Part shown: positions 3,304 to 13,314 of the stretch, in pieces | Layout: each line of letters starts with the position of its first letter | Numbering within the stretch: the stretch's first letter is position 1 | IMG/VR virus record: IMGVR_UViG_3300029953_000167 | Span: 1-22,427 of that record | Length of the DNA: 22,427 nucleotides | Direction: 5' to 3' (one strand) | Source of the DNA: a virus | Notes under the pieces: model-generated | What the model saw: only the letters and a program-made list of their open reading frames with translations | Database searches by the model: none | Told to the model about the DNA's origin: nothing | Program-made: the position numbers and the translations under genes

Positions 3304-3581
3304 CAATGCACCAGCCCTTCCGCCGCGTCTTCGCGTGCTGCTATGGCCATGTGGATGGCTGCGCGCGCCGGCTCAAGGTTGCGGAGGATCGCGTGGGCCA
3401 CCGGCAGCGGCACGCCGCCGAAAACAGGAATGCAATCGACGGCAAGCTGAAGATCGTTGACCGGCGCGAAGAGCGGCTCTTCCAGCTCTTCGGGAATCAG
3501 CGCCAGGGCGGACGCCGAGATGCAGCGCGGGGTCATGTTGCCGCGCAGGTAAACCATGCGGTCTGGGGATTTGTCAGCCAC
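3303..3581 (-). CDS. Hypothetical early protein (92 aa)
   Basis: The preferred start is the GTG at 3581, with GAGG 6 nt upstream and an 8-nt overlap with the preceding gene. An ATG eight codons later is the alternative. The protein contains an acidic patch (LIPEELEEPLF) and helices (VAHAILRNLEPARAAIHMAIAA). No motif, membrane segment or family is recognised. Confidence 0.55.
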   Translation of the reverse strand: MADKSPDRMVYLRGNMTPRCISASALALIPEELEEPLFAPVNDLQLAVDCIPVFGGVPLPVAHAILRNLEPARAAIHMAIAAREDAAEGLVH

Positions 3582-3804
3582 GAAGCACCTCGCTGTTCTC
3601 GGCCTCCAGCCGCGCAAAGCCGTCTTGCAGTGTGCAGCCGATCTGGGACATCAGCCGCAGAATCGCCTTGGCTTCGTGGACGTGGATGCTGCCGTCTTTA
3701 ACTGCGCGGGCGGAGGCCGTTTGCAGATCGCGGCGCAGGATGTCCACGTTCACTTGAAAAGCGGCGCTCTCGGTTGCATCGACGGCGATCTTGAAGCTTT
3801 TCAT
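3574..3804 (-). CDS. Hypothetical helical early protein (76 aa)
   Basis: The protein starts MKSFKIAVDATE and is almost wholly helical, with two amphipathic helices (about residues 14-36 and 40-72: VHEAKAILRLMSQIGCTL, then DGFARLEAENSEVL). This looks like a small helical bundle or dimer. The start shares one base with the upstream stop. No known family. Confidence 0.6.
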   Translation of the reverse strand: MKSFKIAVDATESAAFQVNVDILRRDLQTASARAVKDGSIHVHEAKAILRLMSQIGCTLQDGFARLEAENSEVLRG

Positions 3805-4019
3805 CAGCGCGGCCTCCCGTGAAACCGATTCGCATCCGGGCACGTTGAGCAGTGGTTTACAGCCGGCGAATCTTCCGCGGGCATGGGATCCATGGGCATC
3901 TTCTTGTTTGCCGGCGTGATCCACCACTCGATATCCGCAAGGCATCCCGCGCATGTGCCGCATCCCGTGAAGGTGTAGCCCGCGGCTGCCATTTGCGTTT
4001 TAACGGTTGGGAAGCTCAT
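3804..4019 (-). CDS. Zinc-finger phage protein of the TP-x-x-KKMPMDP type (71 aa)
   Basis: Three cysteines near the start (C20, C23, C26) and H56-C57-x2-C60 near the end bracket the signature WWITPANKKMPMDP. This combination, ending in HCSTCPDANRF, recurs in many short phage and prophage proteins of unknown function, where it is read as a zinc-binding module. The ATG overlaps the upstream stop (ATGA). Here it lies among other early zinc-binding genes, so a role in redirecting host nucleic-acid enzymes is possible but unproved. Confidence 0.65.
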   Translation of the reverse strand: MSFPTVKTQMAAAGYTFTGCGTCAGCLADIEWWITPANKKMPMDPMPAEDSPAVNHCSTCPDANRFHGRPR

Positions 4020-4180
4020 TCGTGGTCCGCCTTTCTGCGCTCTTCGCGGGTGCGGCGGTCGATGCCGAAGAAGTAATAACGAAGGATGGTGGCAATGCTG
4101 CACAGGCTCCACGGCAGCGTGGCCAGCACAGCGCCGCAGAGCAGGAAGAGGAGATCACGCTGGGTCATGGCATCGTTCAT
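4016..4180 (-). CDS. Small single-pass membrane protein (54 aa)
   Basis: A hydrophobic segment (about residues 10-33, LLFLLCGAVLATLPWSLCSIATIL) is followed by an aromatic interface (RYYFFGI) and a highly charged tail (DRRTREERRKADHE), so the C-terminus is probably cytoplasmic. GGAGG lies 6 nt before the ATG, one of the best ribosome sites in the operon, and the start also overlaps the upstream stop (ATGA). Function unknown. Confidence 0.65.
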   Translation of the reverse strand: MNDAMTQRDLLFLLCGAVLATLPWSLCSIATILRYYFFGIDRRTREERRKADHE

Positions 4181-4374
4181 CGCGCGCCTCCAATGAGATT
4201 TACGCCGAATGTGGAGCACACCAAACGCGCCGACGCACGGTAGGAGTGAGCTGCAAGCAAAATCGAGTAACGGTTCAGCCAAACGGGTAGCTGCTGCGCC
4301 GCATCGGCGTCCATATCACGGAGCTGATCGTCGCTCAGCGGGATTTTCAGGTTGCTATGTACAATCCAGATCAT
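4177..4374 (-). CDS. Hypothetical early protein (65 aa)
   Basis: The protein starts MIWIVHSNLKIPLSDDQLRDMDADAA. The acidic middle is followed by a helix (WLNRYSILLAAHSYRASARLV). The ATG shares one base with the stop of the upstream membrane-protein gene. It contains no cysteine cluster and no clear membrane span. No family is recognised. Confidence 0.55.
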   Translation of the reverse strand: MIWIVHSNLKIPLSDDQLRDMDADAAQQLPVWLNRYSILLAAHSYRASARLVCSTFGVNLIGGAR

Positions 4375-4739
4375 CAGCGGCCACCGATCACGCGGGCCGC
4401 CGCGCCGCCGGGCAAGAAGGCCGCGACGATCTGGATGAACGTAAAAGCCGCAGTGAAGAAGACTGCGAAGATGAGAATGTTCCACGCGGAACGCTGGGCG
4501 CGGAGCAGCCACTCGGCAATGCGGCGCAGCTCGTCGGCAGAGGGCGTGTAGTTCATCCACGCTGCCCACCAGCGGCCCAGGCTCACGGTTACATGCACAT
4601 GCGAGCCGTGGACGCTGGCGGTCAGGCGGCCTTCACAATGTGCGCGGCGATAGACGATCTCCGGGTTGGCACTCGGCTCTGAGTCGAGAACCTTGCGCAG
4701 CGTGGCCGGGAATGCGGTTTGTTCGAATTCGCTGTTCAT
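4374..4739 (-). CDS. Tail-anchored-type membrane protein (121 aa)
   Basis: The first 80 residues are soluble and contain a beta-like stretch (GRLTASVHGSHVHVTVSLGRWWAAW) and a helix. Residues 86-109 form a single hydrophobic span (WNILIFAVFFTAAFTFIQIVAA), and a short Gly/Ala/Arg tail follows. The ATG overlaps the stop of the MuB-like gene by four bases, so it is translationally coupled to transposition genes. The function is not recognisable. Confidence 0.6.
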   Translation of the reverse strand: MNSEFEQTAFPATLRKVLDSEPSANPEIVYRRAHCEGRLTASVHGSHVHVTVSLGRWWAAWMNYTPSADELRRIAEWLLRAQRSAWNILIFAVFFTAAFTFIQIVAAFLPGGAAARVIGGR

Positions 4740-9946: not shown

Positions 9947-10105
9947 ACTCAATCTCAGACCAGTATGGTTGCGACCCGCCAAATATCCGAAAGGAGCATG
10001 GCGGAGAGCCAGAGCAGAGTGTCCGTGCGGTTGCCCGTGCCTGCGCGCCAAGTAACGCGTTGGGCTTTGCAGCCGCCGGCCTCGATTGGATTGAGGCATG
10101 CGCGG

Positions 10106-10597
10106 ATGAATGACGACAAGACATTGAGCGCGGCCGGGCTGGCCCTGCTGAAGCGGAGCGAAGGCTTTCGCGCCAAGGTCTACCTGGACGTGGTGGGGAT
10201 TCCGACGATTGGCTACGGCCATCGCCTGCTGCATGGGCAGAGTTTTCCCACTGGAATCGACGAAGAGTTTGGCGCGACGATCCTGGCTGACGACGTGCAC
10301 GAGGCGGAGCAATCTGTAAAACGCCTGGTGCGTGTTTCGCTGACTCAGGGCCAGTTCGACGCGCTGGTGGATTTCGTTTTCAACCTGGGCGCGGTGCGGC
10401 TGGGCGCGTCCACGCTGCTGATCGAATTGAATGCCGGCCACTACGACGCGGCAGCGGAGCAGTTGCTGCGCTGGGATCACACCGGCCTGAAAGAAGTGCT
10501 GGCGCTGAAGGCGCGGCGGCAGGCGGAGTTTGCGCTGTGGCACGCGGAAGCGGACGGCGGCCCGGCGGCACAGGCCGAGGAAGAGAAGGCGGCCTGA
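10106..10597 (+). CDS. Endolysin, GH24 (T4-type) lysozyme
   Basis: The 163-residue enzyme cleaves the MurNAc-GlcNAc bond of peptidoglycan at lysis. The catalytic triad E19, D28, T34 sits in KRSEGFRAKVYLDVVGIPTIGYGH and has the same spacing as E11, D20, T26 of T4 lysozyme. The conserved QFDALVDFVFNLG motif follows at 83-95. There is no signal peptide or membrane anchor, so export should depend on a holin. I chose the ATG at 10106 (GAGG 9 nt upstream). The frame is open back to 9965, but an ATG at 10001 has its ribosome site only one base away. An acidic Ala/Glu tail ends the protein. Confidence 0.92.
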   Translation: MNDDKTLSAAGLALLKRSEGFRAKVYLDVVGIPTIGYGHRLLHGQSFPTGIDEEFGATILADDVHEAEQSVKRLVRVSLTQGQFDALVDFVFNLGAVRLGASTLLIELNAGHYDAAAEQLLRWDHTGLKEVLALKARRQAEFALWHAEADGGPAAQAEEEKAA

Positions 10598-10821
10598 TGG
10601 CGGGCGTAAACAGTGACAACATCGCCGACGTGTTCAGCTACCACGCACCGGGCGGCAACGATCTGGAACACTACCAGGCGCTTCGCGATGGCGCGCGGAC
10701 CTTCGCTGAAGTGATCCTGGCGAACTGCCCGCCATGCGCCGATCAGCAAGCCGCGCTGCGGAAGGTGCGCGAGGCGGTGATGACAGCCAACGCGGGCGTT
10801 GCATTGAAGGGGCGGGTATGA
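10597..10821 (+). CDS. Acb2/Tad1-like small protein (candidate anti-CBASS/anti-Thoeris sponge)
   Basis: This is a 74-residue, mostly helical protein. FSYHAPGG, then HYQALRDGARTFAEVILANCPP and ALRKVREAVMTANAGVAL, follow the pattern of a widespread short phage family (Y-H-x-P ... Y-x-x-[IL]-R ... A ... I ... CP-P ... AL-x-K-x-x-[EQ]AVM-x-ANA). I recall this family being annotated as carrying the Acb2/Tad1 hairpin domain. Founding members form oligomers that sequester cyclic nucleotides or gcADPR made by host CBASS or Thoeris defences. The start overlaps the lysozyme stop (TGATG). Family assignment is from memory of the motif; binding is not shown by the sequence. Confidence 0.6.
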   Translation: MAGVNSDNIADVFSYHAPGGNDLEHYQALRDGARTFAEVILANCPPCADQQAALRKVREAVMTANAGVALKGRV

Positions 10822-11444
10822 CGCTATCGAGAGGATTGATTGCCGGGATTGTGGCTGTGCTGCTGGCTTTGACTGGCCTGGGCGGCTACGGATGGCTGCA
10901 AGAGCACGACGCACGCACCAAGGCTGAGACCGCATCCGCCGTGCAGCAGAAGACTGCCGACGCCGCGAAAAGCGATGCCACCGCAACTGCGGACCAGCTG
11001 AAGCAGACGCTGGCCGCATTGCAGGCGCAGGCCGCTAAGCCCGCGACGCCGCAGTCGATTGTGTTCGACACTTCGAAGCTGATCCCGAACATGCCGCAGC
11101 CTATTGTGATTCAGGCCGCGCCTGTGCCGGCCGCGGGAAACGGACCCGCGTTGCCGGCCAGCCCGGCCGGCGACGCCAAGCCGCAGCAGCAGCTCGTGAT
11201 TCCGGCGGCGGATTTCCAGGCGATCCAGACGGCGGAGATCGGCTGCCAGGAGAATGTGGCCAGCCTCGCGGCCTGCACCAAGGAAGCCGTGGATACACAA
11301 ACGCAACTGACGGCCGCAACCGCCGAAGCCAAGGAATGGAAGACGGCGGCGAATGGCGGAAGCTGGATCAAGCGCACGGTGACGGCGCTGAAGTTTATAG
11401 GTATCGGCGCGGGCGTCGGTTACGTGGTGGCCCACAAATGGTGA
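10818..11444 (+). CDS. Membrane-anchored coiled-coil protein of the lysis cassette (possible spanin-like)
   Basis: The protein has 208 residues. Residues 5-25 are an N-terminal membrane span (RGLIAGIVAVLLALTGLGGY), 28-74 an Ala/Gln-rich coiled coil, 75-135 a Pro/Ala linker, 136-178 a second helical region with C143 and C153, and 191-204 a weakly hydrophobic C-terminus. Inner-membrane spanins (Rz) have an N-terminal anchor and periplasmic coiled coils, and the position between lysozyme and holin-like genes fits. I see no separate outer-membrane lipoprotein (Rz1). The start overlaps the upstream stop (ATGA). Confidence 0.5.
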   Translation: MTLSRGLIAGIVAVLLALTGLGGYGWLQEHDARTKAETASAVQQKTADAAKSDATATADQLKQTLAALQAQAAKPATPQSIVFDTSKLIPNMPQPIVIQAAPVPAAGNGPALPASPAGDAKPQQQLVIPAADFQAIQTAEIGCQENVASLAACTKEAVDTQTQLTAATAEAKEWKTAANGGSWIKRTVTALKFIGIGAGVGYVVAHKW

Positions 11445-11722
11445 AGGCAATCGGCGATTTCTTCCGCTCGCAGTTCAGTGAGAGCGATGGCACGGTGAGC
11501 AACACGCGCGTGTGCATCTGGCTTGTGGTGGTATTCGCGCTGGGTTGGGTAACGGCTTTGGTGTCGAAGATCCACGGTACGGTGACTGTGAGCGATCTGG
11601 GGCAGGTGCTTGGGCCGCTGGGCATGTTCGTGACAGGTATCTCCGGCAGCCTGTATGCCATTAACAAGACGGCGGATGTGTTCAACAACCGGACGGCGGC
11701 GAACAAGCCGCCTGGGCAATAA
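11438..11722 (+). CDS. Putative holin (two membrane spans)
   Basis: The 94-residue protein has two hydrophobic spans, about 25-43 (VCIWLVVVFALGWVTALVS) and 57-74 (LGPLGMFVTGISGSLYAI), a basic-amphipathic N-terminus and a polar C-terminus. Size, topology and place after the lysozyme are those of class II-like phage holins, which release the endolysin through the inner membrane. The ATG lies within the previous gene's end (7-nt overlap); a GTG one codon later is also possible. Confidence 0.6.
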   Translation: MVKAIGDFFRSQFSESDGTVSNTRVCIWLVVVFALGWVTALVSKIHGTVTVSDLGQVLGPLGMFVTGISGSLYAINKTADVFNNRTAANKPPGQ

Positions 11723-11733
11723 GGGAGACTGGG

Positions 11734-12549
11734 ATGATCACTTTTGCAATTGTGTGCATAGCGCTGGCGGCGCTGATTGTGGCGTTTCTGCTGGGCGGCA
11801 AGTACGGCAACGGCTGGCTGCAGGCGGAGCTGGCGAAGGAACGCGAGTTGACGAAGCTGATCGTAGCGGATCGGAACAAGGCTCAGGATCTGGTGGCGAA
11901 AGCCAAGGCCGCGGCAGTGCAGGCCGGGATCGACGTGAAGAGGGTGTTTCCGTTCCTCGCGCTGCTCTTCGCGATCGGCGGGTTCATGGCGAGCTGCGAT
12001 GGCGGCACGCTGTGCCATGCGCAGGCGGTTGCGGCGCTGACGCCGAGCGGGACTTCCTACTCGCCCGAGACCGACCTTGAGAAGCTGGATGTGCAGGCGC
12101 TCTCGACGGCTAAGGCGACGGTCGATTTTGCGGCCTTCTCGCTGACCGACCAGGCGATTGCCGACGAGTTGAAGGCTCTGGCCGCGCGGCAGGTTACCGT
12201 CCGCATCTATCTCGACCGGGGCGAGTTACAGTCCGAGTGCCGGGCGGATGTAACATGCGCCAGAATTCCACTGAAGGAACTTATCGGGTTTCCGGGAATT
12301 TCCATCCGGGTGAAGTACTCCAAGGTGCTGATGCACTTAAAGAGTTATGAGCTGGACGGTCTGCTGCTCAGAGACGGCTCGGCCAATTTCAGCATCCAGG
12401 GAGAGAGCCGCCAGGACAATTCGGCGGTGTTTACCCAGGACGCGGCGGCGGTCGCCGGCTTCGAGCGAAAGTTCCAGGCGATGTGGGACCGGCCGGACAA
12501 CCTGACGGTGGCCCAGGCGGTGCAATCTTCGCCCCCAGTGGGGAAGTAA
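11734..12549 (+). CDS. Membrane-anchored phospholipase D-fold nuclease (single HKD)
   Basis: This is a 271-residue protein. Residues 2-21 are a membrane span, 29-63 a charged helix, 71-86 a second hydrophobic segment ending in C88, and 105-252 a PLD-family domain. The HKD motif is H201-x-K203-x4-D208, followed by G215-S216-x-N218 and Q227-D-N229, as in bacterial Nuc-type endonucleases that dimerise to form one active site. The second hydrophobic segment begins at a GTG (11935) and resembles a signal peptide (VKRVFPFLALLFAIGGFMASC), so the gene may be a fusion of a small membrane protein with an exported nuclease. It could degrade DNA in the envelope or act on lipids. Confidence 0.75.
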   Translation: MITFAIVCIALAALIVAFLLGGKYGNGWLQAELAKERELTKLIVADRNKAQDLVAKAKAAAVQAGIDVKRVFPFLALLFAIGGFMASCDGGTLCHAQAVAALTPSGTSYSPETDLEKLDVQALSTAKATVDFAAFSLTDQAIADELKALAARQVTVRIYLDRGELQSECRADVTCARIPLKELIGFPGISIRVKYSKVLMHLKSYELDGLLLRDGSANFSIQGESRQDNSAVFTQDAAAVAGFERKFQAMWDRPDNLTVAQAVQSSPPVGK

Positions 12550-12735: not shown

Positions 12736-13314
12736 ATGGGCGATGGCGGCATGGGTCAGGGCGGCTCGGGTCTGGGAGAGCTTCGGGTCGGTTTCCGGAA
12801 GGGCTGGCTCCGGTACATCGGGGTAGTGACGGCCGGGGGGACCGGCATGGCAATTTGCCTGGGCGCCTACGACGTGCTGAAGAACCAGCCGGCCCAATCT
12901 TTTACTTTGCTGCACGATTGGGGCCCCGCGTTCCTGATTTGTATGTTGCTGGTTATCTTCGGCAGTAAGTCGCTCGACGGACTTGTGTTGGCAGTTAGGG
13001 AGAGTTTTACTTCAATTGCCGCCGCGGTGCAGAACCAGGCTGAAACAAACGGGCGCATGGCGGACGCCTCGACCAAGACGGCCGACGCTTTGACCAGGCT
13101 GGCGGAGCAAGGCGGTAAGCAATTCGAGGAAGTGCGCCGGCTCTCGATCTATGCCGCGCAGGAAATCAGCGGCGTGTACGAGCGGTTCGACCGGACGGAC
13201 GCGGCGCTGCTCGCCCTGGCCAGCAGCGTGAAGGGGTTGCACACGAAGCTGGGCAACGAGAAGACGGCACTCGATTTGAAGGAAGCGGGGGCGACCAGTG
13301 AGCACGGAGCGTGA
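12736..13314 (+). CDS. Two-span membrane protein with coiled coil (Mu gp25/DUF2730 position)
   Basis: I chose the ATG at 12736, with GGAGG 8 nt upstream, giving 192 residues; the frame is open further upstream. A Gly-rich N-terminus precedes two hydrophobic spans (about 30-50, YIGVVTAGGTGMAICLG, and 65-80, FLICMLLVIFGSKSL). The remaining 100 residues are a long helical, heptad-like tail (MADASTKTADALTRLAEQGGKQFEEVRRL). In Mu-like genomes the gene before gp26 and the small terminase encodes a membrane/coiled-coil protein of unknown function (DUF2730). Order and layout match, although this one is longer. Confidence 0.55.
   Translation: MGDGGMGQGGSGLGELRVGFRKGWLRYIGVVTAGGTGMAICLGAYDVLKNQPAQSFTLLHDWGPAFLICMLLVIFGSKSLDGLVLAVRESFTSIAAAVQNQAETNGRMADASTKTADALTRLAEQGGKQFEEVRRLSIYAAQEISGVYERFDRTDAALLALASSVKGLHTKLGNEKTALDLKEAGATSEHGA

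Follow-up and report, generated by a model that had tools for sequence, protein, structure and literature searches.

A gene lying among the lysis genes of a phage that is probably a Mu-like phage of soil Acidobacteria encodes a variant on a known theme, namely, a phage-borne, predicted exported nuclease of the Nuc type that is optionally fused to a membrane module of the cassette and that sits in an exchangeable slot. The gene was found in a 22,427-nucleotide stretch of viral DNA (the window), and its 271-aa product consists of an N-terminal membrane module (residues 1 to ~80) followed by a single-HKD PLD domain (residues ~105–271; Table 1). The ORF is a real feature beyond chance, as judged from 34 distinct homologues, 51 invariant columns in an alignment of 28 of their sequences, and pairwise dN/dS values of 0.08–0.31 in the PLD core. 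The fusion itself is real but optional. Export of a nuclease from the cell seems to be the job of this gene, and we favor digestion of host DNA at the time of lysis over destruction of incoming phage DNA.

Nuclease domain and export signals

The ORF opens with an ATG preceded by a good Shine-Dalgarno sequence (anti-Shine-Dalgarno duplex, −8.4 kcal/mol), and PLDc_2 (PF13091) is the sole Pfam domain above cut-off in its product (E 1.2e-15; 58 bits against a cut-off of 27). The signature HxK(x)4D(x)6GSxN is present as H201-K203-D208-(6)-G215-S216-N218. Among solved structures, the protein matches Nuc of plasmid pKM101 (1byr) at 1e-6, and its predicted fold retrieves the single-HKD enzymes NucT (6ehi, 8e-10) and Nuc (1byr, 1.4e-7) in Foldseek with a probability of 1.0, at sequence identities of about 18–24%. 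With 24 bits against the cut-off of 225 for the NucT equivalog of NCBIfam, it is by sequence a relative of NucT and not NucT itself. In both sequence and fold, the domain thus reads as a nuclease of the Nuc type, with presumed activity on DNA, much as the first-pass annotation had it when it described an HKD nuclease behind two hydrophobic segments. These segments span about residues 2–21 and 72–87, and an AlphaFold2 model of the whole protein (mean pLDDT 87.9) places a long helix at residues 2–63 and a hydrophobic helix at residues 68–85 ahead of a confident PLD fold. Membership in the PLD families of anti-phage defense (DrmC, DpdK) was rejected, the superfamily matches being weak and below the NCBIfam cut-offs; for DrmC of DISARM, the score was 19.5 bits against 133, and the neighbors are phage genes.

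Across the 28 divergent homologues aligned, H201, K203, D208, G215, S216, N218, C169, C175, and Q97 are all invariant, and C88 is kept in at least 90%. By pattern search, 31 of the 34 homologues were flagged for a lipobox-like cysteine, doubtfully so in L051, and every one of the 34 for an AQ or PQ site. The protein therefore has a conserved hydrophobic segment with a lipobox-like cysteine or an A-x-A cleavage site, as expected of an exported protein or lipoprotein, and it is predicted to be exported and membrane-targeted; the membrane-tethered, exported nuclease suggested at first reading is borne out by the conserved cysteine and A-Q site. A disulfide between C169 and C175 is possible and would fit an extracytoplasmic enzyme. 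Given the invariant active site, the conserved export signals, and the low dN/dS, the gene is constrained both in the export of its product and in the integrity of the active site.

Table 1. Features of the nuclease gene and its surroundings (window positions unless a locus is named)
Feature	Position	Strand	Evidence or remark
Phage lysozyme	9965..10597	+	PF00959, E 5e-35
Small Acb2/Tad1 hairpin ORF, between lysozyme and spanin	10597-10821		PF24729, E 5.8e-9, above cut-off
Rz-like spanin candidate	10818..11444	+	phrog_5151/739/89, E 0.008-0.012
Holin-like ORF, ending 11 bp upstream of PLD gene	11438..11722	+	No named family; phrog_27250, E 0.004, function unknown
Whole fused gene	11734..12549	+	271 aa; membrane module and predicted exported PLD (Nuc/NucT-type) nuclease
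First transmembrane segment of module (about residues 2-20)	11734..11793	+	Sequence, AlphaFold2 helix 2-63, module alignment
Module linker, charged, net-basic, helical	11797..11934	+	K+R 10, D+E 6; predicted cytoplasmic
In-frame GTG (V68), proposed internal start	11935..11937	+	Weak Shine-Dalgarno, not conserved
KR-VFPFL motif and second hydrophobic segment	11938..11994	+	Hybrid of module TM2 and nuclease signal-peptide core; FP[WF]L also in stand-alone modules (L013, L021, L126)
C88 of lipobox-like MASC-D	11995..11997	+	Pattern search, alignment
A96-Q97, signal-peptidase-I-like site, conserved	12019..12024	+	28-sequence alignment
PLDc_2 nuclease domain, residues 121-251	12094..12486	+	Pfam PF13091, Foldseek
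C169 and C175, invariant, possible disulfide (predicted)	12238..12258	+	28-sequence alignment
HKD motif H201-K203-D208, invariant	12334..12357	+	28-sequence alignment
GSxN motif G215-S216-A217-N218, invariant	12376..12387	+	28-sequence alignment
Syntenic membrane protein, TM with helical tail, uncharacterized	12739..13314	+	3′ of PLD gene in 34/34 loci
Uncharacterized protein of ~108 aa	13298-13618		Ahead of Mu gp27 homologue, kept in 34/34 loci
Exported Endonuclease_NS in slot	L142 3470-4300		PF01223, 1.2e-43, 149.8 bits against cut-off 23
Exported HNH-like-motif proteins in slot	L075 3252-3965; L087 1917-2510; L113 about 3429-4478; L089; L111		Motif alone

Lysis cassette and exchangeable slot

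The gene order of the window is lysozyme, Acb2/Tad1-hairpin protein, Rz-like spanin, holin-like protein, PLD nuclease, TM protein, 106-aa ORF, and Mu gp27-like protein (the terminase small subunit), after which comes an ORF where the large terminase would be expected, an assignment made by position and sequence only. These neighbors confirm the location in a lysis cassette that had been read from the window itself. Scans with the window protein and with an alignment of the PLD core retrieved about 50 viral loci and three contigs of Acidobacteriaceae metagenome-assembled genomes (MAGs), which reduce to 34 distinct genes, all in Mu-like phage neighborhoods. The MAG contigs came from the alignment-based scan, the scan of genome contigs with the single protein having given no match, and because of them the host is probably an acidobacterium. 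Among 50,697 annotated phage records, no convincing PLD homologue was found (one match, E=0.5). The closest homologues outside phages, at about 41% identity, are Methylocystis plasmid proteins, with VirB/T4SS genes a few kilobases away in both of the two examined.

The same trio, namely, the TM protein, the ~108-aa ORF, and the Mu gp27 homologue, follows the PLD gene in all 34 loci, and in 19 of the relatives the nuclease gene shares a 4-bp ATGA-type overlap with the ORF upstream. Given this overlap and the position among lysis genes, co-expression with the lysis genes is likely, and expression would then be late. Directly upstream of the nuclease in 29 of the 34 loci lies a companion ORF of ~85 aa with a RARIRAQ motif (L016 2683-3111 and equivalents), which matches no family, often overlaps the nuclease start by 4 bp, and was not found in the window; an immunity function was rejected for it, as it also occurs in L072, L071, and L090, which lack the PLD gene. 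The Acb2/Tad1-hairpin ORF, of a family that we take to be cyclic-nucleotide sponges countering CBASS and Thoeris, was present in two of the 13 records tested (the window and L013).

With the ~108-aa downstream protein as query, 80 loci (51 distinct) were collected, 46 of which had enough upstream sequence to reveal the content of the slot. Twenty-nine of these 46 distinct phages carry the PLD nuclease, five an exported protein with an HNH-like motif, one an exported Endonuclease_NS, and 11 no recognized nuclease. The HNH-like proteins share an invariant ExDHL..GG..N.W.P..KD..E motif; they match neither PF01844 nor any other Pfam or NCBIfam family, and AlphaFold2 models them at a pLDDT of 42. 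Since their assignment is by motif, the solid replacement by another nuclease is one case, L142. Plasmid-borne relatives of the HNH-like proteins, in Streptomyces, Burkholderia, Rhodococcus, and Acidiphilium, bear the annotation of hypothetical proteins. In L075, the HNH-like domain is preceded by a signal peptide that shares 69% identity with the one in the PLD homologue L023, and the 4-bp overlap with the ORF upstream recurs, as in PLD loci. A signal-peptide relic is all that is kept of a deleted PLD gene in L072 (3777-3872). The nuclease is thus not essential for lysis, considering this relic and the 11 phages with no recognized nuclease. That one slot is held by a PLD enzyme, by Endonuclease_NS, or by other exported nuclease-like proteins, or has been emptied by deletion, suggests selection for an extracytoplasmic nuclease.

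Host DNA at lysis and incoming DNA

In Mu-type phages, replication takes place inside the host chromosome, which is not degraded beforehand, and keeping a nuclease outside the cytoplasm until lysis would therefore be a reasonable means of removing host DNA. We propose, with confidence that is evenly poised, that the late-made nuclease is held outside the cytoplasm and digests host DNA at lysis. It would be made along with the lysis genes, and the hydrophobic segment that joins the two-segment membrane module to its own signal sequence would carry it outward, either into the periplasm or onto the outward-facing side of the inner membrane; phage DNA would be beyond its reach because the enzyme is kept out of the cytoplasm. 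Once endolysin and spanin had opened the envelope, the nuclease would meet and cut the released host DNA, presumably to the benefit of virions thereby freed from the viscous chromosome. A similar freeing of virions by the DNase Spd1 was argued by Broudy et al. (2002), as that work is cited in PMC2658872. The Helicobacter pylori NucT is periplasmic and membrane-associated, is inactivated by the H124N mutation, and prefers single strands (PMC5714352). This preference, if common to the window enzyme, would make it ill suited to digesting a host chromosome. The 11 of 46 related phages with no recognized nuclease in the slot also speak against a role in lysis, as does, by analogy, the behavior of tested prophage-encoded exported DNases, which act in lysogens and block transformation.

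That analogy leads to the foremost alternative, which we consider possible though on balance somewhat improbable: an exported nuclease made in lysogens or during infection would cut superinfecting phage, conjugative, or transforming DNA, thus protecting the prophage from competitors or from curing by recombination. The Dns of the Campylobacter Mu-like prophage CJIE1, with dns2 and dns3, makes strains non-transformable (PMC10893306, PMC4774983), NucT is implicated in transformation (PMC5714352), and the membrane-bound nuclease SNIPE cuts phage DNA at injection (PMC13190303), although SNIPE acts on the cytoplasmic side and the window nuclease is predicted to lie outside. The T4SS genes near the Methylocystis homologues agree with such a barrier, as does a gene that is variable and exchangeable like much defense cargo. 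However, its position and translational overlap tie the nuclease to the lysis and late genes, and the 11 bp that separate it from the upstream gene in the window leave little space for a promoter of its own.

A lipid substrate is a far weaker prospect, and we think it very unlikely that the HKD enzyme hydrolyzes membrane phospholipid and joins endolysin and spanin as the third lytic enzyme. Lipases do occur in the PLD superfamily, and both the membrane targeting and the lysis-cassette location would suit one, yet the protein falls by sequence and fold in the single-HKD Nuc/NucT subfamily, and the gene is absent from many related phages. The unrelated Endonuclease_NS that fills the slot in a related phage, and for which we know of no lipase activity, argues for nuclease rather than phospholipase function.

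The enzyme differs in several ways from its closest known counterparts. Nuc and NucT share its single HKD, GSxN, and fold, whereas the window enzyme is phage-borne, lies in a lysis cassette, and has a lipobox-like signal, two invariant cysteines, and a fused two-segment module. CJIE1 Dns is likewise a variably present exported DNase of a Mu-like prophage; its demonstrated action is the blocking of transformation, and it presumably belongs to a protein family other than the PLD fold. Spd1 and the streptodornases of Streptococcus pyogenes prophages are phage-encoded secreted DNases that have been suggested to reduce viscosity after lysis, in a Gram-positive host; we take them to lie outside the PLD family and know of no membrane module in them. 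SNIPE (PD-lambda-1) also joins an N-terminal membrane segment to a nuclease, but its nuclease is a cytoplasmic-side GIY-YIG domain with DUF4041, whereas the phage-encoded PLD nuclease would act on the outer side and lacks DUF4041; with PLDc_2 alone above cut-off, the window protein does not belong to SNIPE. To our knowledge, there is no consensus on why exported Nuc-type nucleases occur on plasmids and in phages, and the slot variants offer matched pairs for comparing DNA clearance at lysis with exclusion of incoming DNA.

The membrane module and its fusion

Among the 34 homologues, the module is fused to the nuclease in 11 (the window, L016, L018, L019, L044, L048, L049, L051, L054, L059, and L061), encoded by a separate upstream gene in two (L013 and L021), absent from 20, and replaced by another fused membrane protein in one (L058). 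L061 is nearly identical to L019, leaving 10 distinct fused genes, and the more distant locus L126 has a separate module gene directly upstream of the PLD gene. The 20 proteins without the module open with a signal peptide of their own, such as MTMRIRGWVGIGLVFVLTLWMASCLREAYAQ in L023. The first-pass annotation had proposed that a small membrane protein was joined to an exported nuclease, and in L013, L021, and L126 the two parts are indeed encoded by separate genes, most relatives being a signal-peptide nuclease alone; the N-terminal 67 residues are accordingly not a constant domain of the family. In L058 (5533-6507), an independent in-frame fusion places a two-segment membrane protein of the WWQGKKT family, whose usual place is downstream of the PLD gene, ahead of the nuclease. 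Fused and unfused forms are mixed in the PLD-core tree, with fused L048 nested in an otherwise unfused clade; a single origin of the fusion was rejected, since well-supported branches force at least three label changes, and the order of gain and loss lies beyond the resolution of this tree. The module was seen only in phages with the PLD gene and in none of the related phages without it. Because the fusion is optional, a single enzyme occurs in nature both with the membrane module and without it.

The joint itself can be traced. In fused proteins, the module ends in [KR][KR]-x-FP[WF][LF]; as separate ORFs, it ends in ...HKKIFPWL in L013, ...DVKKVFPFLALLLAIYLARGLI in L021, and ...FPFLALILMIVLRRIHT in L126, all with the FP[WF]L motif and the latter two with the whole second hydrophobic segment. 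The first half of the second segment in the window ([KR][KR]-x-FP[WF]L...) derives from the module, since the separate-gene modules have it too. The stretch that runs to MASC-D...CHA-Q lines up with the signal peptide of the nuclease itself, and the second segment is therefore a hybrid. The initial view of this segment as a complete nuclease signal peptide thus holds for its second half (ASC...A-Q) and fails for its first.

The module can be called holin-like only tentatively: it matches no holin family, giving weak spanin-like coil matches alone (E 0.01–0.1), and a separate holin-like ORF already lies upstream. A search with a narrower alignment of the module returned already-known loci only. 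We regard it as quite improbable that the module is a releasin-like regulator, as Mu gp25 is, governing release of the nuclease from the membrane. Both are small TM proteins of a Mu-type lysis region with a similar predicted topology (a short N-out end, a TM segment, and a cytoplasmic helical domain), and the basic dyad ahead of TM2 recalls K6-K7 of Mu gp22 (PMC9239132). However, DUF2730 (PF10805) has no match in the window record and none above cut-off in the other records, the module linker is net basic against the anionic gp25 domain, the module is fused to an enzyme, and 20 of the 34 homologues do without it; the cleavage site would, moreover, make a release factor unnecessary.

Signal peptidase, II at C88 or I at A96-Q97, would release the nuclease from the module, and if two products exist, such cleavage is a likelier source than internal initiation. 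Cleavage in the window would yield products similar to the separately encoded module and nuclease of L021 or L126. That one gene instead yields a full-length protein and a short nuclease begun at GTG 11935, as had been proposed, is hardly credible: the in-frame GTG is exactly where it was placed and precedes a hydrophobic segment in the window, L016, and L059, but the other seven of the 10 distinct fused genes have no start codon there (GTC, CCG, GCG, GCA, or ATC), the surrounding residues are membrane-module sequence, and the Shine-Dalgarno is weak (−4.6 kcal/mol in the window and −2.5 and −2.6 in the two other GTG genes, against a random mean of −3.0 and −8.4 at the main start). Internal initiation as a conserved feature was rejected on these grounds.

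Taken further, and only tentatively since we hold it to be rather doubtful as a whole, acidobacterial Mu-like phages may maintain a dedicated slot for exported nucleases, in which nucleases of unrelated fold replace one another after a common signal peptide. In some of these phages, the nuclease may be made as a polyprotein with a small membrane protein of the lysis cassette, which cleavage by host signal peptidase would turn into two functional products. Short repeats, read as SVVSGQW or IRDQGSG, were also observed at gene junctions, some within signal peptides (L013 5395-5520 and the N-termini of L015, L026, L028, L042, and L058), and these could have aided in-frame fusions and swaps.
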